DNA from: Onishia taeanensis
GTDB taxonomy: Bacteria; Pseudomonadota; Gammaproteobacteria; Pseudomonadales; Halomonadaceae
NCBI RefSeq assembly: GCF_003268885.1
Contig: NZ_QLSX01000015.1
Coordinates: 9,908-72,939, forward strand
Length of the DNA stretch: 63,032 nucleotides
Reading direction: 5' to 3'
Below are positions 1-20,964 of the stretch, piece by piece. Under the pieces are notes generated by a model. It saw only the letters and a list, made by a program, of their open reading frames with translations, searched no databases and was not told the DNA's origin. Within the stretch, counting starts at the first letter, position 1; each line of letters begins with the position of its first letter. The translations under genes and the position numbers were made by a program.

Positions 1-1181
<1,181 letters not shown>

Positions 1182-1254
1182 GCTTATTCCTTCACCGTGG
1201 CGGACAAGCTCGTAAACAACTCACCCGATGACCGCGATGTGCAGCTGCTTGATG

Positions 1255-1518
1255 TCACTCAGGGGGCGTATTCCTTGATTTGATAGAGCCGTTGTCACAA
1301 CAGGCGTCGAACTGCTTCTTACGCCAAATCGCATAAATGGTCAGGCCGATGAAGAAGGCCAGGGCCGGCAATAACACAACGTCGAGATAGCCCGTCAGCG
1401 CCGCCAGGCCCACCGTGCCAAGCAGGATCACCAGGATCGGCGTAAAGCAGCACAATGCCACCAGGACGGTGCCGATCACGCTCACGCGCAGCAGGGTCTT
1501 GGGATTCTTCATGATCAC
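1255..1518 (-). CDS. merF: Mercuric ion transporter MerF
   Basis: An 87-residue two-helix inner-membrane protein of the mercury uptake pathway. It is close to canonical plasmid MerF: the Cys pair in helix 1 (ALCCFTP), the GLAALTGYLD turn, and the cytoplasmic pair in FDACCDNG. It takes Hg(II) from periplasmic MerP and delivers it to MerA. The first codons overlap the merP stop by 4 bp (ATGA type). The start could be codon 1 or Met3 (MKNPKTLL), the usual MerF N-terminus. It is unusual that MerT, MerF and a second MerF-like protein all occur in one operon. Confidence 0.95.
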   Translation of the reverse strand: MIMKNPKTLLRVSVIGTVLVALCCFTPILVILLGTVGLAALTGYLDVVLLPALAFFIGLTIYAIWRKKQFDACCDNGSIKSRNTPPE

Positions 1519-1811
1519 TCTCGATCCGCTTGCGAGGATGTCGGGGTTGATGGATACCCAGCGTTGGTGGTGGCTTCGGTCAATGCCTCCACCGACGTTC
1601 GGGCGTCGTCAAAGGTGACCACGGCCTCGAGATCCGCGTAGCTCACGTCGACTTGCGAGACGCCGTCCACCTTGTTGAGGGCGGCCTTGACGGTGATCGG
1701 GCAGGCGGCACAGGTCATGCCCGGCACCGACAGCTTCACGGTCTGCAGGGCCGCTAAGGCGGGCGTGCTGAGCAGGGCGAGTAGCGCGATGAAGGCGAAA
1801 CGAGCTTTCAT
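1515..1811 (-). CDS. merP: Periplasmic mercury-binding protein MerP
   Basis: A 98-residue HMA-fold protein that scavenges Hg(II) in the periplasm and hands it to MerT or MerF. A Sec signal peptide occupies the first 20 residues (cleavage after TPALA). The mature domain has the conserved GMTCAACPITVKAAL metal-binding motif. An AGGAG ribosome-binding site precedes ATG 1811, and merT ends 13 bp upstream. The length, motif and position between merT and merF match standard mer operons. Confidence 0.97.
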   Translation of the reverse strand: MKARFAFIALLALLSTPALAALQTVKLSVPGMTCAACPITVKAALNKVDGVSQVDVSYADLEAVVTFDDARTSVEALTEATTNAGYPSTPTSSQADRE

Positions 1812-1824
1812 GGTAGATCTCCTT

Positions 1825-2175
1825 TTAATAGAACAGGGGCAAGACGTAGGGGAATACCAGGGCGATTAGCACCAGCAGCAATACGAGCCAGAAGATCGCC
1901 TTGTAGCCCGTCCTGACCCGTGGCACGGCACACACCTCTCCCGGCTGGCACTTTTCCACTGGCCGAAAGACGCGACGCCAGGCGAAGAACATCGCCATCA
2001 GCGCGACGCCGATAAAGAGCGGGCGATAGGGCTCCAGCGACGCCAGATTGCTGATCCAGGCGCCGGAAACGCCCAGCGTGATCAGAACCAGCGGGCCGAG
2101 GCAACACGCCGAGGCCAGGAGGGCCGCGACTCCTCCGGCGGCCAGGGGTCCTCGCCCCGTTTTAGATGTCCGCAT
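1825..2175 (-). CDS. merT: Mercuric transport protein MerT
   Basis: A 116-residue inner-membrane Hg(II) importer with three predicted helices. The helix 1 Cys pair is in SACCLGPL and the cytoplasmic loop pair in KCQPGEVC, as in Tn501/Tn21 MerT. A longer open frame reaches further upstream, but the start at 2175 (MRTSK) gives the standard length, has AAAGGAG 8 bp before it, and lies downstream of the mer promoter; a longer form would run through the operator. First gene of the minus-strand mer operon. Confidence 0.96.
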   Translation of the reverse strand: MRTSKTGRGPLAAGGVAALLASACCLGPLVLITLGVSGAWISNLASLEPYRPLFIGVALMAMFFAWRRVFRPVEKCQPGEVCAVPRVRTGYKAIFWLVLLLVLIALVFPYVLPLFY

Positions 2176-2212
2176 TGACGATTCTCCTTTCGGGATGGGG
2201 GGAGCTACGATA

Positions 2213-2243
2213 AGGTTACTTCCGTAGCTTGGTACGGAGTCAA
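2213..2243 (-). promoter_or_regulatory. merT promoter and MerR operator
   Basis: Reading on the minus strand: -35 TTGACT (2238-2243), a 19-bp spacer, and -10 TAACCT (2213-2218). The overlong spacer is the hallmark of MerR-activated promoters. Inside it is an imperfect dyad, CCGTA-N6-TACGG (2222-2237), almost identical to the Tn501/Tn21 operator. It lies directly between divergent merT and merR, so MerR can both activate PmerT and repress its own gene. Confidence 0.93.
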
Positions 2244-2248
2244 GCATC

Positions 2249-2695
2249 ATGAAGAGACATGCAGATAAAGTGGCGGACACCATGACCATTGGCGGCCTGG
2301 CCAAAGCGGCCGGCGTCAATGTCGAGACAATCCGCTATTACCAGCGACGAGGGCTATTATCGGAGCCCGAACGACCTCCCGGAGGTATTCGACGCTATAG
2401 TGCCGCCGATATCGACAGGTTGACGTTCGTGAAAACGGCGCAGCAGCTAGGCTTTAGTCTGGATGAGATCAGTGACCTACTTCGGCTGGAAGATGGCGCC
2501 CACTGTCAAGAAGCCAGTGCTCTCGCAGAGCACAAGTTAGGGGACGTTCGCGAGAAGATCGACAGGCTTGAAAGAATTGAGAAGGTGCTGAGCGAAATGG
2601 TCGACCGATGCCATGCAAAACAAGGCAATATCACTTGCCCGCTAATTGCGTCATTGCATGAAGGGCTCAGAGAAGCAGAAGACCCAAGGGAGTAA
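2249..2695 (+). CDS. merR: Mercury-responsive regulator MerR
   Basis: A 148-residue MerR-family activator. The N-terminal winged helix ([19 protein letters not shown], about 13-31) binds the operator. The long dimerisation helix and metal loop carry the three Hg ligands Cys86, Cys121 and Cys130 ([21 protein letters not shown]), equivalent to Cys82/117/126 of Tn501 MerR. The start at 2249 has GGAG 9 bp upstream, overlapping the operator; ATG 2282 is an alternative with a weaker site. Divergent from the mer operon it controls. Confidence 0.96.
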
Positions 2696-2821: not shown

Positions 2822-3675
2822 CTAGGTTTTGTCTGAAAAGTCTGCACGCAAACAACGGTCTATGCAGGCCAGGCATACCAACGCCTTGAAACTGCTGGCG
2901 AGCTTGTCATAGCGCGTGCAGACACGGCGTAGTTCCTTGATTCAGCCGATGCAACGCTCGATGACGTTTCTTTCCCGGTAGCGCGGCTTGTCAAATCCCC
3001 TGGACGCCCCCGGCCGTGGCTTTCGGAGCATCTTGCGTCTGGCAATGATCGGCTTCATCCGGTGGCGGTCGCAGTACCGGCGGAGGGAATCACTGTCGTA
3101 GCCTTTGTCCGCCACGATGTATCGGCAACGTTTACGTGGTCGTCCCACTCGCCCAGGCAAATGGACGTGCTCCATGGTAGGAACAAAGTGGCGGGTATCC
3201 GAATCCTGCCCCGGCGACACGGTGAACGTTAGTGGCCAGCCATGCCGATCGCAAAGCATGTGGATCTTGGTAGTCAGGCCGCCTCGACTGCGCCCCAGCG
3301 CATGGTCTATGGGTTCTTTCGATCCCCCTTTTTGCCGCCTCCAGAGGCAGCCCGGGTGGCCCGGATCGAGGTGGAATCGATCATCCAGGTATCCAAATCC
3401 ATCAGCCCGTCTTCCCGTAGCTTGAGATGTAGCCGATTCAGGATAGCCTCGAAGGTGCCATCGTCTCGCCATTGCCGGAAGCGGTCATAGACGGTCTTCC
3501 AGGGACCATACCGCTCTGGGAGATCGCGCCATTTGGTGCCTGAGCACAGGATCCAGAAGATCCCGTTCAGCACTTGGCGGTCATCCCGGAGCGGGCGGCC
3601 CATTGTCTGAGGCGGTGAGACGATGTCTTCGGTCATCTGCCAGCTTGCGTCTGAGAGTTCGTGACATCCTGCCAT
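2822..3675 (-). pseudogene. IS5-family DDE transposase, two frames plus premature stop
   Basis: The first frame (3675 to 3307) has the N-terminal domain and first catalytic Asp (WMIDSTSIRA). The second, in the -1 frame (joined near 3330, ending 2942), has IVADKGYDSD and the terminal Glu region YRERNVIERCIG. The switch lies at an A5G5 run (minus-strand reading, 3324-3333), where this group normally makes OrfAB by programmed -1 slippage, so the shift itself may be functional. At 2942-2944, however, a TGA interrupts a frame that continues as recognisable transposase C-terminus to 2822. A Trp codon there (TGG) would restore it. Probably inactive. Confidence 0.85.
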
Positions 3676-6350: not shown

Positions 6351-6713
6351 ATGAACGCTACGCAGCAATACGTTCTGCTACTTGGCCTGGCGCTGGGTAC
6401 CGTGGGTATGGTGCTTTCCCTTTACAGCTTGTCCCGCGCCATAGGCCCGACACGCGGGGAGCCGGGCAAGGATGTGCCGGCGAGTTCCGGAGTCCTGTCG
6501 CGGGATCCGGTATGGGGGCGGTATCACGCTCGTTACTATGGATACGCGTTGCTGTTTCTGGCTTTCGATATGGAGATGGCATTCATGTACCCGTGGGCCG
6601 TTGTGTACAAGGAAGTAGGAATGGTTGCCTTGCTTGATATGGGCGTGTTTCTTGCCATTCTTTTTCTCGGTCTGCTCTACGGGTGGAGTCAGGGGGCTTT
6701 CAGGCGGCAATGA
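6351..6713 (+). CDS. Complex I-like subunit A (NuoA/NdhC family)
   Basis: A 120-residue protein with three predicted membrane helices, homologous to complex I subunit A, which clamps the quinone-site loop against subunits H and J. The family signature is kept: RYYGYALLFLAFDMEMAF then MYPWAV, with the acidic pair Asp73/Glu75. The usual Cys of the first loop (YECG in NuoA) is missing; the loop reads RDPVWGRYH. GGAGG stands 6 bp before ATG 6351; a longer frame from 6258 includes IS debris. First gene of an eight-gene operon. Its stop overlaps the next start (ATGA). Not the housekeeping NuoA, given the neighbours. Confidence 0.9.
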   Translation: MNATQQYVLLLGLALGTVGMVLSLYSLSRAIGPTRGEPGKDVPASSGVLSRDPVWGRYHARYYGYALLFLAFDMEMAFMYPWAVVYKEVGMVALLDMGVFLAILFLGLLYGWSQGAFRRQ

Positions 6714-8668
6714 GTTCTGATCCAGCAATAAACCTAACGGGCGCACGGCAGAAACGTTACTCAGTGCTGCAGAAGCTGGTTTCCCGGGCCCTGGCGCGTA
6801 ACCTGAGCTGTCTGATCGTTCCGGGCCCGGAAGTGGCCCTGGCGCATGGTCTGGACGTGACTGCAGCAGGCTTGCGCATTGCAACCACGCCACGCGATGC
6901 CAGCGTGCTTCTGATTGTCGGAGATCTGCCCGGGAAAATGGGGGATGCCGTGGCAGTGCTCTACGCGCAGATGCCCCGGCCGCGCGCGATTCTCATGGTA
7001 GGCGGGCAGACACCGTCGACTTTATCGGGTGACGATATCTCCTCAGACCTCTCGCAAGAAGATCTGACCGAAGCCGTAGGTCAGCTAAAGCGGGCATTGG
7101 CTGACGGTGCCTTTACAGACTCGCCGGAGGATTTCGACGCCTCTGTAATGCACGCCAGGATCGAGTATGTCTGCCCCATGCATCCCGAAGTTGTGGAGGA
7201 TGAGCCGGGTAGCTGCCCCAAATGTGGCATGGACCTGGTAGCCCGCGAAGCCGGGGAGTCAACCCCTGACGGCGGCAGCGATCATGAACATCACGAAGAT
7301 CACGAACACCATGGCCACGAACACGAGCATTGCCATGACCAGGAGCACCAGAGCCACCATGAGCACCAGAGCCACCATGAGCACCAGAGCCACCATGGGC
7401 ATCATGAGCATCATGATGGCCATGATCAGGACCACGGCCACGACCACGACCACGACCACAATAACGAACACCAACCGGAACACGCTCCCGAAAATGCTGG
7501 GACCGAATATACCTGCCCCATGCACCCCGAAATTGTTCGGGACGAACCGGGCAGCTGCCCGAAGTGCGGCATGGATCTGGTAGTCCGTGAATCTGACGAC
7601 CACTCAGAACATGAACATTCCGGCCATGATCACGGTGAACACGATCACGGTGAACACGATCACGGTGGGCATGATCATGAAGGACATGATCATGGTTCCT
7701 CGGGATTCATGTCCATGATTGAAGTCACCAAAGACCTGCCGCGCAGCGCCGACGGCCTGCAGATGGACTGGCTTGAGGTGCCGTTCGGTCCGGTCTTCCC
7801 TGGCTTGCCCGGCGGACTGAAGTTGACGCTGACCCTTGATGGTGACGGCGTAACGGAGGGGCAGGCGATCTCCCTGGTGGGGGTGACCAGCAAAGGTGAC
7901 AATGTTGAAGAAAGTGAAGAGATGGATGCCGAGACCTTCATTGCGTATCTGTCAGCTGCAATTCCGCTCGCGCCGGTGAGCTACCGTCTTTTGGCTTGTC
8001 TGGCAATAGAGCAAGCGGCAGGACTGGAGGACGATTCGGCAAACGCCGGTGCCCGCACTGGCGCCCTTGAGCGTGAGCGCATCGCCAGTCATCTTGGCTG
8101 GCTGGCTCAGTTAGGGCGCCAGCTCGGCTTCGCCTGGCTGACGCAACGGGCTTCAACTCTGCAACTGCAAGTCAGAGAGGCTAACCGGGACAGTCTTGCT
8201 GCCCTGGAGCCAGCGCTGCGTACATTGGGTACCCGCCTTGAACGAACGCCTTTGCTTAAATCGCGGCTGATGGGAGTCGGTATACTGCCAACGGAATCTT
8301 CTGGTTTGCGCGGCCCCGTAGCGAGTGCTGCCAACGAAGGCGGAGATGCCTGGGCGCGCCTGTGGCAGCGCCTGGCCGAAATTTCGGCCAGCCTTGACCT
8401 TATAAAGTCGGGCGCAGAACCGGAGCTGCCGGTTCTGCGCGACGTTGGCGATGTGTCAGGAACCGGTGAGGCAACCGTTGACACTCCGCGCGGCGAGGCC
8501 CGGCTAAGTCTGAAACTGGAGCGCGGCCATGTTAAGTCATACGAGCTGGACACCGCCTGCAGTCACCATATCGGCCTGGTCCCGAAGCTTGTCGAGGGCC
8601 AGGAACTGGGCGATGCGCTGCTGGCAGTCGGGTCACTGGACCTTTCGCCCTGGGAGGTGACTTCGTGA
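6710..8668 (+). CDS. Fused NuoB-like / HMBD x2 / His-rich / NuoD-like protein
   Basis: A soluble 652-residue fusion. Residues 15-100 follow NuoB (VSRALARNLSCLIVPGP; ATTPRDASVLLIVGDLPGKM; YAQMPRPRAILMVGG), but the N2-cluster Cys are gone: the CC pair is SC, and the MGSC and PGCPP positions are lost. Two HMBD domains (about 153-178 and 267-291) each have CPMHPE and a second CPKCGM pair. Between and after them are His/Asp/Glu tracts (191-262, 296-329) with dozens of His. Residues 357-652 follow NuoD (PGGLKLTLTLDGDG; IASHLGWLAQLGRQLG; GVGILP; DTPRGEARLSL), without the N-terminal His and Tyr quinone-site segments. Start 6710 overlaps subunit A; the earlier GTG 6683 is less likely. Likely a metal-binding dock for the membrane arm, not an electron-transfer module. 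Confidence 0.88.
   Translation: MSSDPAINLTGARQKRYSVLQKLVSRALARNLSCLIVPGPEVALAHGLDVTAAGLRIATTPRDASVLLIVGDLPGKMGDAVAVLYAQMPRPRAILMVGGQTPSTLSGDDISSDLSQEDLTEAVGQLKRALADGAFTDSPEDFDASVMHARIEYVCPMHPEVVEDEPGSCPKCGMDLVAREAGESTPDGGSDHEHHEDHEHHGHEHEHCHDQEHQSHHEHQSHHEHQSHHGHHEHHDGHDQDHGHDHDHDHNNEHQPEHAPENAGTEYTCPMHPEIVRDEPGSCPKCGMDLVVRESDDHSEHEHSGHDHGEHDHGEHDHGGHDHEGHDHGSSGFMSMIEVTKDLPRSADGLQMDWLEVPFGPVFPGLPGGLKLTLTLDGDGVTEGQAISLVGVTSKGDNVEESEEMDAETFIAYLSAAIPLAPVSYRLLACLAIEQAAGLEDDSANAGARTGALERERIASHLGWLAQLGRQLGFAWLTQRASTLQLQVREANRDSLAALEPALRTLGTRLERTPLLKSRLMGVGILPTESSGLRGPVASAANEGGDAWARLWQRLAEISASLDLIKSGAEPELPVLRDVGDVSGTGEATVDTPRGEARLSLKLERGHVKSYELDTACSHHIGLVPKLVEGQELGDALLAVGSLDLSPWEVTS
7343..7396 (+). 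repeat. In-frame 18-bp tandem repeat, three units
   Basis: Three exact copies of GAGCACCAGAGCCACCAT (7343-7360, 7361-7378, 7379-7396), each coding EHQSHH in the first His-rich tract of the fusion protein. Exact nucleotide identity points to recent slippage, so the number of metal-binding repeats may vary between strains. A second, 15-bp in-frame repeat coding GEHDH units lies at about 7627-7670. Confidence 0.9.
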
Positions 8669-9561
8669 CTGTCGCCATCGTTTTGCTCGCGCTGCTTGGC
8701 AGCGCCTGGCTGCTGGCTGTGATTGAGGGCTGGATGGCCACTGGGCGTCTGAGTCCGGCGGCGCCGCTGTTCAACGGCCTGGCTCACCTCGGACGTGAAT
8801 CTATTGTGCCGCGCTCGCCGGACCGGGTCTTTTTCGAGGCGGCGCCGGTGCTGCTATTGGTCGTAGCAGTGCTTGGCATGGCGGTCCTGCCGCTGGCGCC
8901 GGATCTGATCATCGCGGACCTGGGCACCGGCGCGCTCTTCATCAACGCGGCCCTGGCCTATGTGCTGGTCGCGGTGATCATGGCTGGCTGGGGGCCGGAT
9001 GGCGCCTACGCGATGATCGGCGGCTGGCGTTTTCTGGGCCAGCTTATTGCCTATTCCATGCTTATTGTCATGCCGATCACGGCCGTGGCCATGCGTGCAG
9101 AGTCCCTGGTGAACACCGCGATCGTTGGTTCCCAGAGCAGCTTGTGGAACATCGTCTACCAGCCTCTGGGCTTCGTGCTGTTTTTCATTGCCGCCATGGC
9201 GCTGGCGTTCCGTGCCCCCTTCGATCTGCCCACCGCAGAAGGGGAGCTTGGCGGAGGTGTGGACGCCGAGTACACCGGGGTGCGCCTGGCAGTGCTGCGC
9301 CTGGCCCGACTGACGCTGGTGGTTACTCTGGCTTCGGCGACCACGGTGTTTTACCTCGGCGGCTGGCATGGCCCGCTGCTGCCGCCCTGGGCCTGGAGCC
9401 TGATCAAGACCCTGGCCGTAGCCGTGTCGATGCTGCTCGTCGGTCGCTACCTGCCACGCATTCGCGAGGCGGATCTGATGCGGTGGTGCTGGATTATGGG
9501 CATCCCCCTGGCACTGGTTAATATCATTATTGTCGGTTTACTGATCCTGGTGGTTCCCTAA
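8665..9561 (+). CDS. Complex I-like subunit H (NuoH family)
   Basis: A 298-residue membrane protein of about eight helices, homologous to NuoH, which links the quinone cavity to the proton channels. Conserved features include the ESIVPRSPDRVFFEAAP segment (36-65) and AFRAPFDLPTAEGELGGG with AEYTG (181-205). The nearly invariant Glu of the SYE motif (E. coli 'AQTLSYE') is Ser131 here (LIAYSML). The GTG start at 8665 follows GGGAGGTGA and overlaps the previous stop. The conserved acidic APFDLPxAEGEL loop suggests ion translocation is kept; the missing Glu suggests altered coupling. Confidence 0.9.
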   Translation: MTVAIVLLALLGSAWLLAVIEGWMATGRLSPAAPLFNGLAHLGRESIVPRSPDRVFFEAAPVLLLVVAVLGMAVLPLAPDLIIADLGTGALFINAALAYVLVAVIMAGWGPDGAYAMIGGWRFLGQLIAYSMLIVMPITAVAMRAESLVNTAIVGSQSSLWNIVYQPLGFVLFFIAAMALAFRAPFDLPTAEGELGGGVDAEYTGVRLAVLRLARLTLVVTLASATTVFYLGGWHGPLLPPWAWSLIKTLAVAVSMLLVGRYLPRIREADLMRWCWIMGIPLALVNIIIVGLLILVVP

Positions 9562-10097
9562 TGTACGCACAGGCTTTTTTTGTCGCTGTGTTCGGGCTGG
9601 CCGCAATCGGCTTCGGCCTGGTGGTGTTTCGCACATCGTCCATGGTCCGTTCCGCACTGGCGCTGTTGTTTTCGCAGACCGCCGTCGGCTGCATGTTTCT
9701 GGCGATGCAGACCGAATTTCTGGGTGTACTGCAGATCATGATGATGGCCACGGAGATGAGCATCATGGCCATCTTCATGGTGATGTTCATGATGGATCCC
9801 GGTGGGCTTGGCGGTATGGATATGAGCCACCAGAAGCGCTTCTCGATCGGTGCCGGGGTCAGTGCCGCCGTTGTTGCCATCGCCATTGCACTGCTGTCCG
9901 ACTGGGGTCCCTTGGCGGACCAGGTGCCGGACGCGGAGGCGCAGACACGGGCGCTGGGCATGGAGCTGCTCGGGCGCTCGATGATGATCTTCGAAACCGC
10001 TGGCATCACCATCCTGACCGCGATGATTGCGGCCACGGCGGTGGCAATTCCGGTGCAGAACCTGGCGAGTAAAAACGACAAGGAGTCATCGGAATGA
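9561..10097 (+). CDS. Complex I-like subunit J (NuoJ family)
   Basis: A 178-residue protein with five predicted helices, homologous to NuoJ, whose third helix changes form during the complex I cycle. The core (FSQTAVGCMFLAMQTEFLGV then LQIMMMATEMSIMAIFMVMF) aligns with the family's helix 2-3 region but is very Met-rich and lacks the usual VYVGAI wording, so this is a divergent member. ATG 9561 overlaps the previous stop by one base (TAATG). The next gene starts inside its last codons. Identity rests on this core and on the gene order H-J-K. Confidence 0.85.
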   Translation: MYAQAFFVAVFGLAAIGFGLVVFRTSSMVRSALALLFSQTAVGCMFLAMQTEFLGVLQIMMMATEMSIMAIFMVMFMMDPGGLGGMDMSHQKRFSIGAGVSAAVVAIAIALLSDWGPLADQVPDAEAQTRALGMELLGRSMMIFETAGITILTAMIAATAVAIPVQNLASKNDKESSE

Positions 10098-10405
10098 CCG
10101 CAGTTCTGATAGTAGCGCTTCTGATCGGCGCAATACTCTTCGGTATCGGTATCTATGGCGCACTGTCCCAGACCAATCTGGTGATGATCATGATGGGCGT
10201 GGAGCTAATGCTGGCGGGCGCGATGGTGAACCTGGTCGCTTTCTGGCGCTTTCTGCACCCAGAAGCCTATTCCGGCCAGATGTTTGTGCTGGTGGTGATG
10301 ACGGTTATGGCGCTGGAGATGGCGGTCGGCTTTGGCATTGCCATCGCCCGCTTCCGGGCCAAGGGCTCGGTAGAGATGGAAGAAGCGCAGGACCTTAAAG
10401 GATGA
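10094..10405 (+). CDS. Complex I-like subunit K (NuoK family)
   Basis: A 103-residue, three-helix protein homologous to NuoK and MrpC. Both buried glutamates needed for proton pumping in NuoK are present: Glu37 (IMMGVELMLAGA) and Glu75 (TVMALEMAVGFG). Other family features are QTNLVMI and GQMFVLVVMTVMALE. It starts at ATG 10094 with AAGGAG upstream, overlapping the J stop by 4 bp, and itself overlaps the L start by 4 bp. Retention of both glutamates argues for a working ion path. Confidence 0.92.
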   Translation: MTAVLIVALLIGAILFGIGIYGALSQTNLVMIMMGVELMLAGAMVNLVAFWRFLHPEAYSGQMFVLVVMTVMALEMAVGFGIAIARFRAKGSVEMEEAQDLKG

Positions 10406-12225
10406 ATGCAGTGGTCCTGCCGATATTACCGCCGCTGATCGCCGCCCTGGCCGTGTTGATACTGCGCCGGTGGCCGCCTGCACTGGCCCTGGCTGGCGCA
10501 ACGCTCAGCCTGGCGGGAAGCCTCTGGCTTCTGGCCCGGGTGGCTAGTGGTCAGACCGAAACCCTACTTATGCCCGGTCTGCCGGACATGCCACTGCGAC
10601 TGGTCGGCGTGCCGCTTACGGCGTTATTGGCCGTGACGGTGGCCACGGTGGGTACATTCGTGCTGATCCATGCCGTCGGTTACATGAAGCGAGGGTCTGG
10701 TCAGGCGCGCTTCTACGCCGTAATGTCCCTGTTCCTGGCCGCCATGCAGGCGCTGGTGCTGGCCGGCGACTGGGTTCTGCTGCTGGCGGCCTGGGAACTG
10801 ATCGGCCTCTGCAGTTACCTGCTGATCGGCTTCTGGTTCCAGCGGCCCGAAGCCGCGAACGCAGCCAGCCGCGCTTTCCTCTATACCCGCAGCGCAGATC
10901 TCGGGCTTTACGTTGCGGTATTCATACTTATCGGGTCGGCAGGTACCAGTGAGATTGCCGTCTCCCTGACCGCTGGTGGTAGTGCCTCGACCGCGGCCGG
11001 GCTTCTGTTACTGCTGGCCGCCATGGGCAAGTCGGCCCAGGTTCCCCTGCAGGACTGGCTGATGCGCGCCATGGCGGGCCCGACACCGGTCTCGGCGTTG
11101 TTGCACTCGGCCACGCTGGTGGCGGCGGGCGCGATCCTGCTGATCCGCTCGGCCCCGCTGCTGACTCCTGAAGCGCTTTTCGCCATTGGGCTTGTTGGTG
11201 GCGTTACCACGGTGGCAGCCGGGGTGATTGCGCTGGCCGAGCGTGATCTCAAACGCCTGCTCGCGGCTTCTACGGCCAGTCAGTACGGCCTGATGCTGAT
11301 CGCAGTGAGCGCCGGGGTTCCGCTGGCCGCCCTGTTGCACTTGCTCGCCCATGCTGCCATCAAGAGCAGCCTGTTCCTGGCTGCCGGTGATTTCCAGCAT
11401 GCGCGTGGCGATACCACTTTCGATCGGCTGAAGGGCGTTGGCCGCTCCAGACCCTGGGCCTTCGCTGGCTTTGCTCTGGCGGCGCTGGCACTGGCTGGCA
11501 TTCCACCGCTGAGCGGGTTCTTCTCCAAGGATGCGGTTATCACCGCCGCTCTGTCTGCACAGGGCGCCGTCTGGCTCGGCCCTCTGGCCCTGGCAGGCAC
11601 TCTGCTGACCGGCGCCTATATGGCCCGGGCTTTACGCTTGCTCTGGCAGAGCTCCGGCGATACCCGGCCGGTCGCCGGTACTGGCTGGATGCGCGCTGGC
11701 ATCTGGGGTCTGGCGATCCCCGCCGCAGGCCTGGGTCTGGCCTTTGGTCCACTCGAAACAATGCTTGATCTGCCGGTGCCGGAAACCACAGGTATCGGCG
11801 CCATATTGTCCGGACTCGTCGCCGCCTTGGGTGGTCTGGCGCTGGGCTGGCTAGTGCCGGTCAAGCGTCTGCTTGGGCCTGCCCATCAATGGGCAGCATC
11901 GGGGCTAGTGGTTGCGGGCGGGCTCACCGCCTGGGTAGGTCGGCCCGTAATGGCTGTTGCCCGGCGGTGTGACCGTCTGGAAGGCCACCTTTATGCGGCC
12001 GCGCTTGGCGTCGGTCGCGCCAATCTGGCGGTGGGTCGCTGGGTTCGGGGCGGGGATGAGCGTGGTATCGACGGTCTGATCTTCGCCCTGGTGGCCGGTG
12101 TGCGGGCCCTGGGCGCGCGGGCGAGAACCCTGCAAAGCGGCCTGATCCATCACAGCCTGGCGATCAGCGCCGTAGCCACCGCTGTGCTCCTTGTCATCCT
12201 GTTTTCAGCTTCACTGAGTTTCTAA
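10402..12225 (+). CDS. Complex I-like antiporter subunit L (NuoL family)
   Basis: A 607-residue polytopic protein of the Mrp-type antiporter family. Key ion-path residues are present: Glu132 (AAWELIGLCSYLLIGFW), Lys210 (AMGKSAQVPLQDWLMRAMAG), Lys321 (AHAAIKSSLFLAAG) and Lys376-Asp377 (GFFSKDAV). Length equals NuoL, leaving room for the lateral helix and final anchor at the C-terminus. A run of positive residues in the last 130 residues may be the lateral arm. It starts 4 bp inside nuoK. In complex I this is the distal proton channel; MrpA and formate hydrogenlyase subunits are relatives. Confidence 0.93.
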   Translation: MNAVVLPILPPLIAALAVLILRRWPPALALAGATLSLAGSLWLLARVASGQTETLLMPGLPDMPLRLVGVPLTALLAVTVATVGTFVLIHAVGYMKRGSGQARFYAVMSLFLAAMQALVLAGDWVLLLAAWELIGLCSYLLIGFWFQRPEAANAASRAFLYTRSADLGLYVAVFILIGSAGTSEIAVSLTAGGSASTAAGLLLLLAAMGKSAQVPLQDWLMRAMAGPTPVSALLHSATLVAAGAILLIRSAPLLTPEALFAIGLVGGVTTVAAGVIALAERDLKRLLAASTASQYGLMLIAVSAGVPLAALLHLLAHAAIKSSLFLAAGDFQHARGDTTFDRLKGVGRSRPWAFAGFALAALALAGIPPLSGFFSKDAVITAALSAQGAVWLGPLALAGTLLTGAYMARALRLLWQSSGDTRPVAGTGWMRAGIWGLAIPAAGLGLAFGPLETMLDLPVPETTGIGAILSGLVAALGGLALGWLVPVKRLLGPAHQWAASGLVVAGGLTAWVGRPVMAVARRCDRLEGHLYAAALGVGRANLAVGRWVRGGDERGIDGLIFALVAGVRALGARARTLQSGLIHHSLAISAVATAVLLVILFSASLSF

Positions 12226-12240
12226 AGGAACCCTGTATTC

Positions 12241-13710
12241 ATGCTACCACTCGTATCTCTGACCTTGTTTTTGCCTCTCGCCGGCGCCGTGCTGATTCTG
12301 TGTTTGCCGAAGCCGACGGCGCGGACAGTGCATGGCATAGCGATCGTCAGTGCCGCCCTGACTCTGGTCGGCGCTCTGGCCATGTGGCTGCAGGGGGTGA
12401 GTGGTGAGGGCTTTTCCCAGGTTGAAGAGCTGGAATGGATGCCGGCCATCGGCGCCGCTTATCGGGTCGGGGTTGATGGCATAAGCCTGCCGCTGGTGCT
12501 ACTGAGTGCCGTGCTTTTCCTGGTTGCACTCATCTACGCCTCGTCGCTTCGCGATCGCCCGCGGGCCTACGTGGCCCTGGTCCTGCTTCTTGAGACCACG
12601 GCGATCGGTACCTTTACCGCCCTGGACGGGATTCTGTTCTATGTGTTCTTTGAAGTTTCCCTGGTGTCGATGTATTTCATGATCGCAGGGTGGGGACACG
12701 AAGACAGGCAACGTGCAGCGCTGATGTTCTTTATCTACACCCTGCTGGGCAGCCTGCCATTGTTGCTTGCTATTCTGGGGCTTTACCTCGGCAGCCCTGA
12801 TCCTACCTTCGATATGCGGGCCTGGATTGCCCATCCTCCGCTGGAGGGGGCGGCGGCCATGTGGGCGCTGATCGCCATGCTGATTACCTTTGCGGTCAAG
12901 ATTCCCGCCGTACCGTTGCATACCTGGCTGCCGGCAGCCCATGTTCAGGCGTCGACCGTTGGTAGCGTCATCCTGGCTGGCATCATGTTGAAATTCGGGA
13001 CTTACGGGCTTGTGCGCTTCGCCCTGCAAATGACCCCTGACGCTTTCCGCGAAGCCGGAATCGTTGTTCTGTTCTTCGGTGTCGTCAGCGCGATTTACGG
13101 CGCCTTTGCCGCCCTGGCACAGACGGATCTCAAGCGCCTGGTGGCCTATACCTCAGTCAACCACATGGGCTACGTGATCGTCGGCGTCGCCGCGGCTGCG
13201 CTAACACTGGATCCTGCCGTGCGTGCCACCGCTCTGGACGGTGCCGTGCTGCAGATGTTCAGTCACGGTCTGGTCACCGGTGCCCTGTTTTTCCTGGTGG
13301 GCATGATCCAGGAGCGTGCCCAGACCCGCGAAATGAGCGAGTTTGGTGGCCTGCTCAAAACAGTTCCGCTGCTTGGCTGGCTCTTTGTGCTGGCAGCTTT
13401 CGCGTCTCTGGGTCTCCCGGGCCTCGCGCACTTCCCGGCTGAGTTCCAGATATTCCTCGCGACTCTCGGTACCACTCCCATTGCCGTTATCGTGATTCTG
13501 GGCATTGCCATTATCGCCGGAACCTTTCTCAAGGCACTGCGTGAAACCTTTCTGGGTGAGCCCCGGGAGCGCTGGAATAAAATGCCGGATCTGAGCCCGC
13601 GCGAAATTCTCGCTGTGGCGCCCCTGCTAGTGCTCACTGTCGCCACAGGTGTTGCGCCGTCCTGGGTGCTGGACATCATTCACCGGACCACATCGGTACT
13701 GGTGCTGTAA
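12241..13710 (+). CDS. Complex I-like antiporter subunit M (NuoM family)
   Basis: A 489-residue polytopic proton-channel subunit. Conserved residues: Glu138 (YVFFEVSLVSMYFMIAGWG), Lys220 (TFAVKIPAVPLHTWLPAAH) and Lys251 (GIMLKFGTYGLVRF), plus QTDLKRLVAYTSVNHMGYV and QMFSHGLVTGALF. AAAGGA stands 9 bp before ATG 12241; a 15-bp gap after L is the only non-overlapping junction in the operon. The sequence is nearly canonical NuoM, so the membrane arm is probably functional. Confidence 0.94.
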   Translation: MLPLVSLTLFLPLAGAVLILCLPKPTARTVHGIAIVSAALTLVGALAMWLQGVSGEGFSQVEELEWMPAIGAAYRVGVDGISLPLVLLSAVLFLVALIYASSLRDRPRAYVALVLLLETTAIGTFTALDGILFYVFFEVSLVSMYFMIAGWGHEDRQRAALMFFIYTLLGSLPLLLAILGLYLGSPDPTFDMRAWIAHPPLEGAAAMWALIAMLITFAVKIPAVPLHTWLPAAHVQASTVGSVILAGIMLKFGTYGLVRFALQMTPDAFREAGIVVLFFGVVSAIYGAFAALAQTDLKRLVAYTSVNHMGYVIVGVAAAALTLDPAVRATALDGAVLQMFSHGLVTGALFFLVGMIQERAQTREMSEFGGLLKTVPLLGWLFVLAAFASLGLPGLAHFPAEFQIFLATLGTTPIAVIVILGIAIIAGTFLKALRETFLGEPRERWNKMPDLSPREILAVAPLLVLTVATGVAPSWVLDIIHRTTSVLVL

Positions 13711-15074
13711 TGGGTCGAGATCTCGCATTATTAATCCCGGAAATTGCCGTCCTGTTGACGGCTGTCGGTGCGCTGATCGCGGAAATGCTGCGCCGACCCC
13801 GAATTTCGCTGGCTGTCGCCGTCATCGGCTTGCTCGTTGCCACGGGGCTGACCCTGCGCCTGCTGGGCACAGACACAACGGTGTTTGGAGGCAGCTTTCG
13901 AATCGATGCTCTGAGCATCTGGGCCAAGCTTATTTTGCTGCCTGCTACAGTGCTTTCGATGCTGTTGGCGCGGGTGGATGTTCGGGGGAGCGCCCGCGAA
14001 GGTACGGTCTATAGCCTGCTGATCTTTGCCACCCTCGGCGCCCTGGTTCTGGCAGGGGCAGGGGATACCATGTTCCTGGTACTGGGTACACTGCTGACCG
14101 GCCTGGCCACCTTTGCCCTGGTTGCCTATCCGGATACTGATCCGGCGACCGAAGCTGCGATGAAATTCTTTGTATTCGCTTCGGTCACCACATCGATCAT
14201 GATTTTCGGCCTGAGTTACTGGTTCGGCGCTTCGGGCTCCACACTGATTGCCGATCTGCCGGGGATGGATACGATGCCGATGGCTGTCATTCTCGGGTTC
14301 GTGGCTGTTGTTGTTGGTCTGGGCTACAAGGCATCGCTGGTTCCGTTTCATTTCTGGGCGCCAGATGCCTACGAGGGCGGGCCCCTCTCGATTGCAGCTT
14401 ATCTGTCTGTAGTGCCCAAGGTTGGCGCCCTGTTTGCGCTAACGCAGGTGGTTCGTGACCTGCCCCCGGAAACCGGTTGGACTGCCGTCATTGCGGGCCT
14501 CGCGGTTCTCAGCATGACCTATGGCTATCTCGCTGCACTGGTGCAGGACAACGTCATCCGGCTGCTGGCCTATTCGTCGATTGCCCAGTCCGGTTATTTT
14601 CTTCTGGGCATTGTGGCGGTGGGCTCAAGTGAGCTTGCACTACCATCGATCATTCTGTTTGCCGCCGCCTATGCGGCCATGAACCTGGGTGCTTTCGCGG
14701 TTGCCGCCGCAACCGGGCGCACTCTGAACGATTTTGACGGGCTGGGACGTGCACGGCCGATTATGGGTATTGCAATGGTGATCTTCCTGCTGTCGCTGGT
14801 CGGCATTCCGCCGCTGGCCGGCTTCGTCGGCAAATTCATGCTCTTTGCTGCTGCCATCGACGTCCAGTTCACCTGGCTGGCAATCATAGCGATCGTCAAC
14901 AGCGTGCTCTCGCTCGCGGTGTATCTACGCATCGTAGTGCCAATGTACCGGACGGCGGAAAAGACAACCATTTCACCGGGCACATGGCCCGGCATCGTGG
15001 TCATGATCACGTTTGCCGCCACATTGATCATCGGACTGGCCGCTCAGATTTTCCTAGCGGGACTGGCGACGTGA
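13710..15074 (+). CDS. Complex I-like antiporter subunit N (NuoN family)
   Basis: A 454-residue polytopic subunit. It keeps Lys207 (GLGYKASLVPFHFWAPDAYEG), Lys237 (SVVPKVGALFAL) and QDNVIRLLAYSSIAQSGYF. The helix 5 glutamate common in NuoN (E. coli Glu133, 'GLE') is absent: the matching segment reads FLVLGTLLTGL (122-132). ATG 13710 shares a base with the M stop. Last gene of the operon; a weak hairpin (15187-15208, 7-bp stem, no T-run) follows. The loss of one channel Glu while others stay suggests modified stoichiometry or ion choice. Confidence 0.92.
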   Translation: MGRDLALLIPEIAVLLTAVGALIAEMLRRPRISLAVAVIGLLVATGLTLRLLGTDTTVFGGSFRIDALSIWAKLILLPATVLSMLLARVDVRGSAREGTVYSLLIFATLGALVLAGAGDTMFLVLGTLLTGLATFALVAYPDTDPATEAAMKFFVFASVTTSIMIFGLSYWFGASGSTLIADLPGMDTMPMAVILGFVAVVVGLGYKASLVPFHFWAPDAYEGGPLSIAAYLSVVPKVGALFALTQVVRDLPPETGWTAVIAGLAVLSMTYGYLAALVQDNVIRLLAYSSIAQSGYFLLGIVAVGSSELALPSIILFAAAYAAMNLGAFAVAAATGRTLNDFDGLGRARPIMGIAMVIFLLSLVGIPPLAGFVGKFMLFAAAIDVQFTWLAIIAIVNSVLSLAVYLRIVVPMYRTAEKTTISPGTWPGIVVMITFAATLIIGLAAQIFLAGLAT

Positions 15075-15750: not shown

Positions 15751-17088
15751 TCAGTGGGAATGCATGTTGTCGCTGTGATTTGATGATTCTTTACGAGACA
15801 GAAAGAGACGTTCGCCAACCAAGATAGCCGCCATGACAACCGATGCTACTATCAGCACCAGGGGATCTGTCGTCGCTTTTACCCAAAGGAAGCCTGCCAG
15901 CACGACGACATCCAGCAGTATCGCAATAACCAGCACGATTGGGTTGGCACCGACTTCCTTGCGAAGATGACGCAACACCCCCCAATGAATAGCGATATCC
16001 ATGATCAAGTAAAAGATGATACCAAGTGCGGCGATACGGCTAAGGTCAAAAAATGCCGTCAGAACCAAACCAAGCACGACGGTATAGACCAGGGTATGCT
16101 TCTGGATACTTCCTGGCATATGAAAGTGACGATGCGGCACCAGTTCCATTTCCGTCAGCATTGCCAACATGCGTGAGACTGCAAATATACTGGCAATGAT
16201 GCCACCCGCGGTGGCCAGCATGGCAAGAATGACGGTAAACCAAACGGCGGCCTCTCCAAAAGCCGGCCGCGCAGCAGCCGCAAGTGAATAGTCTTTAGTT
16301 TCGATGATTTCCGTCAGGGACAAGTTACTCGCTACTGCAAACCCCACCAACGCATAGATAACGACGCAAAAACCGATCGATATCATGATCGCCCTGCCGA
16401 CATTGCGATGGGGATCTTTTATCTCTGAGCCACTGTTGGTAATCGTCGTGAACCCCTTGAAGGCCAGAATACCCAACGCAGTCGCACCCAGAAAGCCTGT
16501 AAAAGACCCCTCAGGAGCCGATGCCGAGGTTTCCATACCGACGGAGTCGGCGAATATGACACCGACGACGCCAAACAATAGAATCCCACCAATTTTTATG
16601 AACCCGATTACTGATGCAACGCCCTGGATCAACTTGTTGGCGGTGAGGTTGATTAAGAATGCAGAAATAAGCAGCGCCACACCCAGTAGAGGCACATACA
16701 GAGACCTATCTCCTAGATCGAAGAGTTCAAGTGTGTAGGACCCGAAGGTTCTCGCCAGGAAACTCTGAGCGATCACCATGGAGAAATACATCAAGAGCGC
16801 ATGAAAAGCGGTAGGTAGCGTCGATCCATAAGCTTTCTGCAGATACATGCCGATCCCACCTGCCGAAGGATAGGCATTAGACATCTTCACATAGGAGTAG
16901 GCACTGAAGGAGACGATTAGTGCCGATGACAAGAAGGCAAGAGGGAAAAGCGCTCCCGTCATCTCGGCCATCTGTCCTGTCAAGGCAAATATGCCAGCTC
17001 CAATCATGACCCCGGTCCCTAAAGCAATCGCGCCGACCAGAGACAGGCTATCTTTTTTATATTGTGGCGTTCTATCCATTGGCTCCAT
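15751..17088 (-). CDS. APC-superfamily amino acid/polyamine permease
   Basis: A 445-residue inner-membrane transporter with about 12 helices. The substrate-binding helix 1 motif GTGVMIGAGIFALTG (24-38) and helix 6 region GILAFKGFTTITNSGSEI are typical of the APC family (YfnA/CAT-type branch). A His-rich tail (HSDNMHSH) ends the protein. ATG 17088 has AGGAG 7 bp upstream. The substrate is not predictable. It is followed by the frameshifted four-helix gene, an arrangement that suggests a stress-linked unit. The 17089-17305 gap has no gene. Confidence 0.88.
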   Translation of the reverse strand: MEPMDRTPQYKKDSLSLVGAIALGTGVMIGAGIFALTGQMAEMTGALFPLAFLSSALIVSFSAYSYVKMSNAYPSAGGIGMYLQKAYGSTLPTAFHALLMYFSMVIAQSFLARTFGSYTLELFDLGDRSLYVPLLGVALLISAFLINLTANKLIQGVASVIGFIKIGGILLFGVVGVIFADSVGMETSASAPEGSFTGFLGATALGILAFKGFTTITNSGSEIKDPHRNVGRAIMISIGFCVVIYALVGFAVASNLSLTEIIETKDYSLAAAARPAFGEAAVWFTVILAMLATAGGIIASIFAVSRMLAMLTEMELVPHRHFHMPGSIQKHTLVYTVVLGLVLTAFFDLSRIAALGIIFYLIMDIAIHWGVLRHLRKEVGANPIVLVIAILLDVVVLAGFLWVKATTDPLVLIVASVVMAAILVGERLFLSRKESSNHSDNMHSH

Positions 17089-18492: not shown

Positions 18493-20964
18493 TCAGATCT
18501 TCACCCGACGCAGCCGCAGCGAATTCGTGACCACCGACAAGGACGACGCGCTCATCGCAAAGGCGGCGAACATCGGCGAGATAAGGATACCGAGGAACGG
18601 AAACAGGACCCCGGCCGCGACAGGCACGCCGGCCCCGTTGTAGATCAGCGCGAAGAACAGGTTCTGCTTGATGTTGCGCATCGTGGCCAGCGACAACTTG
18701 CGGGCCCGCACGATGCCGTCGAGATTGCCCTTGACCAGGGTGAAGCTTGCGCTTTCGATCGCCACGTCGGCGCCGGTGCCCATGGCGATGCCGACATCGG
18801 CCTGAGCCAGGGCGGGGGCATCATTGACCCCGTCGCCCGCCATCGCCACCTTGCGGCCTTGTTCCTGCAGTTCACGGATGATGCGGGCCTTGTCTTCAGG
18901 CATCACATCAGCGCGGATCTCGTCGATGCCCAGTCGCCCAGCCACCGCTTTCGCCGTCCGCTCGTTGTCGCCCGTCGCCATGATGATGCGGAAGCCCAGT
19001 TGGTGCAGCGCCTTCAGTGCCTCGGGCGTTGTCTCCTTCACCGGGTCGGCGACACTGACCAGACCCGCGATGGCGCCGTCGAGTACGACGAACATCACCG
19101 TCTCGCCCTGGTCACGGCGGTCATTGGCGGTGTCCGACAGCTTGCCGCCGTCGAGGCCCAGTTCGGCCATCAGCTTGGCATTACCCAGCGCCACCGGCTT
19201 GCCGTCGACCACACCCTTGACGCCCATGCCGGTCACGGCCTCGAAATCGCTGGCATCGGCGAGTGTCACCCCACGTTCCTCGGCGCCGCCTACAATCGCC
19301 TCGGCCAGCGGGTGTTCGGAGCCGCGCTCCAGACTGGCCGCCAGGCGTAGCACCTCGGCCTCGTCATGCCCCTCTTCCGGCAACACCGCCACCAGCTTCG
19401 GTTTGCCCTCGGTCAGGGTGCCGGTCTTGTCGACCATCAACGTATCGACCTTGGCAAAACGCTCCAACGCCTCGGCATTCTTGATCAGCACTCCCAGCTG
19501 GGCGCCGCGCCCGGTGGCCGTCATGATCGACATCGGCGTGGCCAAGCCCAGCGCACAGGGACAGGCGATGATCAGTACCGCCACCGCCGAGACCAGCGCA
19601 TAGGACAGCGCCGGCGCCGGCCCCCAGATCGCCCAGGCGATGAAGGAGAGAATGGCGACGCCGATCACCGCAGGGACGAACGTGCCCGCCACCTTGTCGG
19701 CGAACTTCTGGATCGGCGCGCGGGAGCGCTGGGCATTTGCCACCATCTCGACGATCTGGCTGAGCATGGTATCGGCGCCGACACGGGTGGCTTCCATGAC
19801 CAGACTGCCGGTGCCATTGATCGTGGCCCCGGTGACCTTGTCGCCGTCGACCTTTTCCACAGGCACCGGCTCGCCCGTGATCATCGACTCGTCGATCGAG
19901 GAGCGGCCTTCGACCACCACGCCGTCCACCGGCACCTTGTCACCCGGCCGCACCCGCAGGTGATCACCCACCTGCACGTCATCCAGCGCGACCTCTTCTT
20001 CGCTGCCATCGGGCCGGATCACCCGCGCGGTCTTGGCAGCCATGTCCAGCAGCGCGCGAATCGCTTTGCCGGTGCCTTCACGGGCGCGCAACTCCATCAC
20101 CTGACCCAGCAGGACCAGCGCGACGATCACCGCAGCGGCCTCGAAATAGACGCCGACATTGCCGCTCTCGTCGCGAAAGCCCTCGGGAAAGATGCCCGGC
20201 GCCAGCAGCGCGACGATGCTGAACAGATAGGCCGAGCCGACTCCCATGGCGATCAGGCTGAACATGTTAAGATTCATCGTCCGAAAAGAGTTGACACCGC
20301 GGACGAAGAACGGCCAGCCCGACCACAGGATCACCGGCGTCGCCAGGACGAATTCGATCCACAGCGTGGTGCGCTCGCCGAAAACGTCGCGGATCGCCGT
20401 GAGGCCCAGGAAGGGAGACATCGTCAGCACCAGCAACGGGACCGTGAAGATGGCCGCGACCCAGAAGCGCCGGGTGAAGTCGATCAGCTCGGGATTCGGC
20501 CCCTCATCGCCGACCGCCGACGATTCCAGCTCCAGCCCCATGCCGCACAACGGGCAAGCGCCGGGGGCGGTCTGGCGCACCTCGGGGTGCATCGGGCAAG
20601 TGTAGACGGCGCCGGCATGCCCGGCCGGCACCTTGTCGTACTTGCCGCCACGCACCGGCGTACTAGCCTCATGGTTGGCATTATGGTCCGCCTCGTGCTC
20701 GTGACACTGGTCGTGGACAGTATCGTCATGGCCGGCGAGGGCCTTTGGGTCATCGCTTACCACGGGCACGAGGTGCATGCCGCATTTCGGGCAGTCACCC
20801 GGCTGGTTGGCCACCACCTCCGGGTGCATCGGACAGATGTACTGGTCGACACTCTGGTGGTCTCCCTGGCAGCCGGCAGAGACGTGGTCCGTCTCGCCAC
20901 TGCCTCGTGCTGATACATCATGCGATGCATGCCCGTGACAATGGTCGTGCTGATCTTGTTTCAT
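18493..20964 (-). CDS. copA: Copper-exporting P1B-type ATPase with two HMBD domains
   Basis: An 823-residue inner-membrane Cu(I)/Ag(I) efflux ATPase. The N-terminus is His-rich with two HMBD zinc-ribbon-like domains (42-66, 121-145; each CPMHPE plus a second Cys pair) in place of the usual HMA domains. Then come eight predicted helices with the transport motif CPC (468-470), phosphorylation site DKTGT (512-516), SEHPL (549-553), GDGVND (710-715) and [15 protein letters not shown] (804-818), which marks the Cu(I) subtype. GGAG precedes ATG 20964. It follows the SHOCT gene by 91 bp, behind a MerR-type promoter. The HMBD domains are of the same type as in the complex I-like fusion protein. Confidence 0.95.

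Follow-up and report, generated by a model that had tools for sequence, protein, structure and literature searches.

What could a machine do that keeps the membrane arm of respiratory complex I (NDH-1) and carries, in place of the redox arm, a protein with heavy-metal-binding domains (HMBDs)? An operon encoding such a machine lies in Onishia taeanensis, a member of Halomonadaceae, within a stretch of 63,032 nucleotides (contig NZ_QLSX01000015.1, positions 9,908 to 72,939), here called the window; the host genome comprises 3.7 Mb in 30 contigs. The system is real, widespread and under selection. It is related to complex I but redox-free, and it has metal-binding domains as well as coupling subunits rich in Met; our results suggest that this stripped-down relative is re-used for metals such as copper and not for respiration. 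The best single reading, held tentatively and at somewhat less than an even chance, is that of a horizontally spread, redox-free complex I-type machine coupling proton flow to the binding or movement of a soft metal, most likely Cu+ and perhaps Ag+ or Hg2+. Its main rival is a machine for proton or sodium homeostasis, which is weighed below.

The operon consists of eight genes on the forward strand at 6351-15074, ordered A, a fusion gene, H, J, K, L, M and N. In profile searches, all products other than the fusion score over the curated cut-offs: the NuoA-like (6351..6713; PF00507, E = 1e-25), NuoH-like (8665..9561; PF00146, E = 2e-58), NuoJ-like (9561..10097; PF00499, E = 4e-19), NuoK-like (10094..10405; PF00420, E = 2e-18), NuoL-like (10402..12225; PF00361, E = 5e-60), NuoM-like (12241..13710; TIGR01972) and NuoN-like (13710..15074; PF00361, E = 5e-52) subunits. 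Neighbouring genes overlap by 1-4 bases at six of the seven junctions (A/fusion at 6710-6713, fusion/H at 8665-8668, H/J at 9561, J/K at 10094-10097, K/L at 10402-10405 and M/N at 13710), and a 15-base gap between L and M is the sole non-overlapping one; the Pfam matches and these coordinates confirm the gene order and the six overlaps that had originally been read from the bare letters. Gene A starts with the ATG at 6351, which is preceded by GGAGG. The fusion most likely starts with the ATG at 6710 rather than with the GTG at 6683 given in the list of open reading frames (ORFs), and would then have about 652 residues; its residues are nevertheless numbered here from 6683.

The fusion (6710..8668) begins with a truncated NuoB-like domain (about residues 33-111, 6779..7015) devoid of the ligands of the iron-sulfur cluster N2, and ends with a NuoD-like domain (7706..8665) in which the quinone-site His is replaced by Phe. 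NCBIfam models match these two parts below their cut-offs (NuoB at residues 51-109, NuoD at 365-484) and Complex1_49kDa of Pfam gives a weak match at the C-terminus, the assignments being further based on alignment and, for the NuoD-like domain, on sequence matches in the PDB and on Foldseek. Between the two cores PF19335 detects two HMBD stretches (E = 3e-26) with the motif YxCPMHPE...CPKCGM. The first (7163..7246, placed by its YVCPMHPE motif) is followed by a His-rich linker at 7280..7468, and the second (7505..7588), which matches the N-terminal arms of copper ATPases, by another at 7595..7702. An AlphaFold2 model built from 44 sequences has a mean confidence (pLDDT) of 74.9, with the B-like and D-like cores mostly above 80, the HMBDs at about 77-90 and the two linkers, predicted to be disordered, below 50; its best Foldseek matches, at E about 5e-15, are subunits of the NuoD type from formate hydrogenlyase and from complex I. 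Degenerate B and D domains fused around two HMBDs and His tracts, as the original prediction described them, are thus confirmed by Pfam, NCBIfam and alignment.

Relatives were sought in 84,980 genomes, where 177 pattern matches led to 137 relatives, the best 80 of which were kept and underlie the counts of loci (labelled L with a number) given below; as the scan patterns were taken from the D domain of the HMBD type, HMBD-free cousins are under-sampled. Of the 80 loci, 69 have B and D within a single ORF, and seven of the remaining 11 are truncated at a contig end. The Cys, Met and His columns of the first HMBD are invariant in 44 of 44 sequences, and the strict HMBD motif occurs from 0 to 7 times. 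A segment of about 23 residues (SDARxxDPxYxxLGFE) that most of the displayed relatives possess is missing from the fusion of the window (about residues 549-552) and from that of the Marinobacter locus L040.

Can the operon nevertheless encode an enzyme that reduces quinone? Searching the first 22 kb of the window by tblastn with queries from E. coli and Phyllobacterium revealed no nuoB, C, D, E, F, G or I, and the same search recovered all seven genes in each of three control operons; the claimed absence of C, E, F, G and I is borne out. Across the whole host genome PF00346, PF01058 and PF00329 have no match at E ≤ 0.001, i.e. NuoB, NuoC and NuoD are missing, and the two PF01512 proteins found there look to us like RnfC-type and FdsB-type (formate dehydrogenase beta subunit) proteins. 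Residues were counted in the 90 D-like domains of 90 fusions (from the 80 loci, the window and nine plasmid copies) and in 76 B-like domains, the 14 rows that were short, truncated at a contig end or lacking a clear HMBD motif being left out of the latter set. With the N2 ligands of E. coli NuoB taken to be C63, C64, C129 and C158, the first is kept in 35 of the 76 B-like domains and the other three in none, and at least three of the four are missing in all 76. The GPxHP motif of the NuoD quinone site has become GPxF (FGPxF) in 90/90 D-like domains and GPxH occurs in none of them; the column aligned to the quinone-site Tyr is non-Tyr in the window, in a part where the alignment is loose. N2 ligands, quinone-site His and redox-arm genes being all gone, the system is not an NADH dehydrogenase, just as had been proposed, and the wider family offers neither intact N2 ligands nor a regular association with nuoEFGI: true nuo genes outside the fusion lie near 3 of the 80 loci (L051, L056 and L061), besides one weak NuoG-type match in L112. 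In the Marinobacter loci L056 and L061 they start within about 3 kb past N, and in L051 the end of a nuoI gene is seen at the edge of the locus.

A redox arm lent by the NDH-1 of the host is ruled out as the general mode of action, because NuoD (at E ≤ 1e-20) is missing from 15 of the 50 host genomes tested, which are the genomes of 50 of the 80 loci, and, as seen above, the genome of the window has no NuoD either; in the 35 hosts that do have NuoD such borrowing is possible. Another option is that the complex still is a redox enzyme, receiving electrons from some other protein (e.g. a flavoprotein resembling SQR or NDH-2) or using the metal on the HMBD arm as a redox centre (in the reduction of Cu or Hg), with quinone bound at a different site. 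An SQR/NDH-2-like flavoprotein is indeed encoded just 5' of the operon in some gammaproteobacterial metagenome-assembled genomes (MAGs), namely L073 (7323-8507, +) and also L077, L087, L097 and L112, and genes for cytochrome c and multicopper oxidases are annotated near several plasmid copies. However, the flavoprotein cluster is represented in just five of 90 clustered loci, CxxC is found in none of the 90 D-like domains, and the N2 ligands and the quinone-site His are lost; we therefore deem a redox function improbable.

Loss of catalytic residues might also signal plain decay, i.e. a second NDH-1 that has no function and travels with metal islands, and broken copies do exist. In Marinobacter salarius R9SW1 (L040) H departs from the family sequence and N was not detected; a plasmid of Xanthobacter autotrophicus Py2 (L017) bears a remnant made up of A and a short NuoB-like piece; the fusion is annotated in two pieces in L026; and L019 contains an insertion sequence. 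Yet of the 58 kept loci long enough to hold the operon only L040 deviates, the other 57 having all eight genes complete and in order, and the new motifs are invariant. Ratios of nonsynonymous to synonymous substitution rates (dN/dS) fall between 0.03 and 0.25 in the comparisons yielding a value, the fusion being covered by its D-like part only, and on this sequence-based measure the operon genes are under purifying selection. Their occurrence together is, given the 57 complete loci and these ratios, more than a matter of chance. Selection and conservation contradict a decayed NDH-1, as the original prediction had held, and we assign decay a negligible probability.

The operon is also mobile. 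Seven plasmids, from Roseovarius, Paracoccus, Sulfitobacter, Nitratireductor and Rubrobacter, match 80% or more of the length of the fusion in tblastn, and each of the nine plasmid copies of the HMBD type has the order A, fusion, H, J, K, L, M, N, the annotation being split for the fusion in L026 (two pieces) and for H in L024. Hosts of the kept loci include Marinobacter, Halomonas, Alcanivorax, Neopusillimonas, Rhodobacterales, Brevundimonas, gammaproteobacterial MAGs and Actinomycetota. Among same-genus relatives of the window's host the operon is present in two of the five tested (G002 and G005), and 50-odd other genomes of the family or order gave no full match; a 23-base pattern from a NuoJ motif has matches in 14 of 369 gammaproteobacterial genomes, and the backward control in none. 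The window shares 87-89% DNA identity with Marinobacter L041 or Neopusillimonas L047 over stretches located between 7.6 and 15.05 kb, a sign of transfer between classes.

If electrons and quinone are dispensed with, what has become of the subunits that normally couple them to the proton pumps? The third transmembrane helix (TM3) of NuoJ (9723..9794 in the window) contains nine Met in all 78 family copies, against 2-4 in all 33 NDH-1 controls, and reads GVLQIMMMATEMSIMAIFMVMFMM in 59 of the 78; where the controls invariably have Y-x-G-A, the site of the pi-bulge, the family invariably has M-A-T-E. (The NuoJ rows are 78 of 81, those with less than 40% identity or not found being dropped; as controls we used three reference operons and, of the 54 genomes with matches among 60, the 30 with the highest scores.) Defining a gained Met column by at least 90% Met in the family and at most 10% in the controls, of which there were 14 to 23 per subunit, we counted 14 such columns in J, 6 in K, 3 in A, 5 in H, 1 in L, 8 in M and 5 in N. 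The gain is concentrated in J, K and A (23 of 402 residues, versus 19 of 1848 in H, L, M and N; Fisher p = 6e-8) and stays so (p = 2e-7) without J M77, which may reflect an alignment shift of a Met also present in NDH-1. The alignment-start Met of A (M2) was excluded from the tally, positions in A being counted from 6348, one codon before the true start. Several of the gained Met adjoin acidic residues of the E-channel (D-M-E-M in A, L-E-M in K, T-E-M in J), and the NuoA-like subunit of the window has Met on either side of these acids (FDMEMAFMYPW). In E. coli, J Gly61 at the TM3 pi-bulge, A Asp79 and H Glu157 face a single hydrophilic E-channel cavity (PMC8357420).

Most residues of the NDH-1 proton path are kept, with losses in NuoN and NuoH that are weighed below. 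Unchanged in the window and seven other operons are L E144, K229 and K399; M K234, K265 and E407; N K247 and K395; K E36 and E72; and A E81. M E144 is Asp in four cousins, and N K217 is Glu in L020.

A link with metals is also indicated by the surroundings of the operon. In the window, genes for two MerF-like proteins, a MerP-like protein and MerT (all on the reverse strand) and for MerR (forward) occupy 936..2695, and a P1B-type ATPase with two HMBDs is encoded on the reverse strand at 18493..20964. Between the mer genes and the operon (2942-3675, reverse strand) there are ORFs in two frames, which we presume to be transposase-like. The co-occurrence of fusion and metal genes, which the original prediction had named as a check, was examined by comparing both loci within the same genomes: metal markers (P1B ATPase, multicopper oxidase, CopB, CusA, CsoR, DUF305, CDF and MerT) are near 14 of 20 fusion copies and 1 of 20 true nuoD windows (p = 4e-5). 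The comparison covers 20 of the 35 NuoD-bearing genomes, two loci adjoining true nuo operons being left out, and 7 of its 20 fusion loci are shorter than 20 kb. Over the whole set, markers are present in 41 of the 80 loci and in 27 of the 39 loci of at least 20 kb. Clustering of neighbours revealed the P1B ATPase at 17 loci in 15 lineages, a PcoA-type oxidase at 21 loci in 12 lineages and a PcoB-type protein at 21 loci in 11 lineages, the Pco labels denoting membership in clusters with annotated plasmid genes. Of the window and the 80 loci, the window alone gave a match to MerT; the mercury link is accordingly local, and the wider one is to copper-type genes. The notion of a mercury/copper island thus survives in its copper half, copper-type genes recurring near the copies, and even that half does not extend to the 39 loci without any metal marker.

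Another recurrent neighbour in the clustering is of a different kind. An APC-type permease, located in the window at 15751..17088 on the reverse strand, recurs at 24 loci in 12 lineages and is possibly a functional partner of the operon; the annotation also places APC permeases next to two HMBD-free cousins, L018 and L032. A DUF6629 protein adjoins the operon in ten loci, e.g. L100 (6089-6859, reverse strand). Just before 6350, i.e. 5' of gene A, a stretch of the type GATCA...TTTCACGGACGTGTAA was noticed by eye in a few gammaproteobacteria, namely in the window and in L042, L046, L048 and L057, and may be a regulatory site; no element common to all upstream regions of gene A was seen in the 27 loci inspected. 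In gene L, 25 residues of the C-terminal part (at 11957-12014) are missing in the window and L035 and present in L036, L037, L041 and L047, within a variable stretch that looks repeat-like. A phage link was not confirmed for any of 75 pattern matches in viral contigs, and no PADLOC match to a known defence system was obtained for three of the eight proteins.

How might metal and protons be coupled? A soft metal ion would replace electrons and quinone as the partner coupled to the movement of protons. The HMBD/His arm would gather cytosolic metal above the former quinone chamber, and the metal would then be handed from this arm to the Met-rich former E-channel of A, J and K, or would act on it. 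From here two options may be envisaged: either the metal would be driven out by the proton flux through L, M and N (antiport), or its occupancy would open and close the way for that flux. We infer the steps of collection, hand-over and coupling from the features described above. The more specific form of the first option, a Cu+/Ag+ exporter driven by the proton-motive force, in which the HMBD/His arm loads the metal, the Met-rich former E-channel of A/J/K conducts it and protons are exchanged through the antiporter-type subunits, is conceivable, its chance amounting to about one in three. The idea that metal gates or powers the machine, put forward originally, finds support in the Met-rich A, J and K and in the metal genes nearby, and is unproven.

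A different view of the operon is opened by its cousins. Plasmids of Mycobacterium, Arthrobacter, Rhodococcus, Pseudarthrobacter, Halomonas, Roseivivax and Acuticoccus carry an HMBD-free version whose protein with B-like and D-like parts (BD-like protein) has about 290-440 residues and a linker that is rich in His and Met in actinobacteria and contains a GGEGMMGGVPYGRPMAM-type segment in proteobacteria; an insertion sequence interrupts the Pseudarthrobacter copy. Rhodopseudomonas L033 has A-H-J-K-L-M-N and no annotated BD gene. In a tree of the M subunit the HMBD clade (support 100/99) is sister to the HMBD-free clade (96/92), and L033 falls outside (94/85); the tree is rooted with three NDH-1 sequences and two N paralogues on long branches, and no NuoM of a host, though looked for in the control windows, is included in it.

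Moreover, a partial nuoAHJKLMN operon has been described in marine actinomycetes (PMC3314556, PMC6002675, PMC6676996, PMC8622039), as 'NDH-1 partial 2' by Penn and Jensen in 2012 (PMC3314556), and the available text of the Streptomyces SM17/SM18 paper gives its order as nuoA, a hypothetical protein, nuoH, J, K, L, M and N (PMC6676996). This order equals that of the 57 complete uncut loci and of the cousin plasmids, and from this shared layout we infer that the published operons and the present one belong to one family. The layout was therefore already in print, contrary to the statement of the original prediction that no such system had been described; what is new relative to the published accounts found is the metal link. 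The portions of these accounts available to us name neither BD homology nor HMBD, Met pattern or a metal role, and the literature search, with subscription literature mostly outside it, yielded no description of the HMBD fusion or its role with metals. The same sources mention the partial operon in a strain from copper-rich mine fluids (PMC6676996) and tabulate it for a Kocuria strain labelled 'copper miner' (Sun 2018, PMC6002675). They interpret the operon as encoding a pump for protons or sodium that is of use in seawater (PMC3314556, PMC6002675, PMC6676996, PMC8622039).

This interpretation leads to the main rival of metal coupling, a proton/sodium machine of cation homeostasis, Mrp-like in use (under osmotic, pH or salt stress), with BD as a structural cap and the HMBD/His part regulating or buffering metal. 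The membrane subunits and most pump residues are kept, as it would demand; many hosts belong, going by name, to marine or halophilic genera, and the APC permease is a recurrent neighbour. Several further observations fit the rival and weigh directly against metal coupling. Since the sister clade lacks HMBDs and L033 lacks an annotated BD gene, metal loading by HMBDs cannot be the ancestral core function; the published reading of the cousin operon, so far as the accessible sources go, is one of osmotic and marine adaptation; and no metal marker is present at 39 of the 80 loci. Metal coupling is further weakened by several gammaproteobacterial MAG copies that are chromosomal and lie among ordinary genes without metal neighbours, by the fact that the marker comparison was not blind, its queries having come from the window itself and from the surroundings of plasmid-borne members of the family, by the failure to find a single Met face along J TM3 (p = 0.72 and p = 0.33), and by a structure model of NuoJ too poor (pLDDT 61.8) to be of use. 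Lastly, the Glu in the fifth transmembrane helix (TM5) of NuoN (E133 in E. coli) is replaced by Leu, Val or another residue in 11 aligned sequences of the family and its cousins, the window included, and NuoH mostly lacks E157 and parts of its acidic loop. Judged by these residues the proton machinery is not wholly standard, and the loss of the NuoN Glu lowers our confidence in metal coupling.

That same loss, however, is awkward for a pump of cation homeostasis, too, and so are several other findings. The Met gained in A, J and K are common to both clades: all eight HMBD-free cousins share 16 of the 23, and none of the five gained in H. Metal genes accompany 14 of 20 fusion copies as opposed to 1 of 20 nuoD windows, the Cys, Met and His columns of the first HMBD do not vary, and the hosts include Brevundimonas and Arthrobacter, which we take to be non-marine genera. 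On balance, we consider cation homeostasis a serious but rather unlikely explanation, and retain the coupling of proton flow to a soft metal as the best single reading.

Several known systems may be compared with the operon. The likeness to NDH-1 extends to seven membrane subunits in nuo order, most proton-path residues of L, M, N, K and A, and NuoB-like and NuoD-like domains, whereas C, E, F, G, I, the N2 ligands and the quinone-site His are absent, B and D are fused and carry HMBDs, A, J and K are Met-rich, NuoJ has MATE for YxGA and NuoN has no TM5 Glu. The operon is clearly derived from the same stock as NDH-1 and yet does not qualify as an NDH-1; it may employ the same long-range coupling. 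Among the group 4 relatives (Mbh, Mbs, formate hydrogenlyase and Ehr), MbhL is the best PDB sequence match of the D-like domain and HycE and MbsL are its counterparts in fold; the loss of catalytic ligands recalls, as far as we can judge, Ehr. In contrast to group 4 the operon has an NDH-1-type membrane arm (A, H, J, K, L, M, N) and inserted metal domains, and the CxxC pairs that hold Ni-Fe in group 4 [NiFe] hydrogenases occur in none of the D-like domains. Mrp antiporters use antiporter-type subunits without redox chemistry; unlike them, the operon has NuoA, NuoH and the BD protein, its gene set being A, BD, H, J, K, L, M, N and not MrpA-G. P1B-type copper ATPases with an N-terminal HMBD (3rfu, 8ovl) share with the fusion the HMBD and the His-rich stretch, but the fusion lacks an ATPase domain and has this stretch built in between NuoB-like and NuoD-like cores. 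A further counterpart is the partial operon of marine actinomycetes (Salinispora, Kocuria, Streptomyces), in which, going by the available descriptions, the genes come in the same order and a single hypothetical one separates A from H.

How the chemistry of complex I is coupled to its distant proton pumps is a long-standing open question. The operon provides a natural complex, mobile between phyla and maintained by selection, that retains the pumps and most of the chain of acidic residues but has lost electrons, Fe-S clusters and quinone site, and whose coupling part has been remodelled with methionines and metal-binding domains. Should the pumps be driven or gated by metal, or drive it themselves, coupling would have to be feasible in the absence of quinone chemistry, and A/J/K would offer a switch open to testing. 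The system would also, to our knowledge, handle metals in a way known nowhere else, and would have been hidden under the annotation 'NADH-quinone oxidoreductase'.

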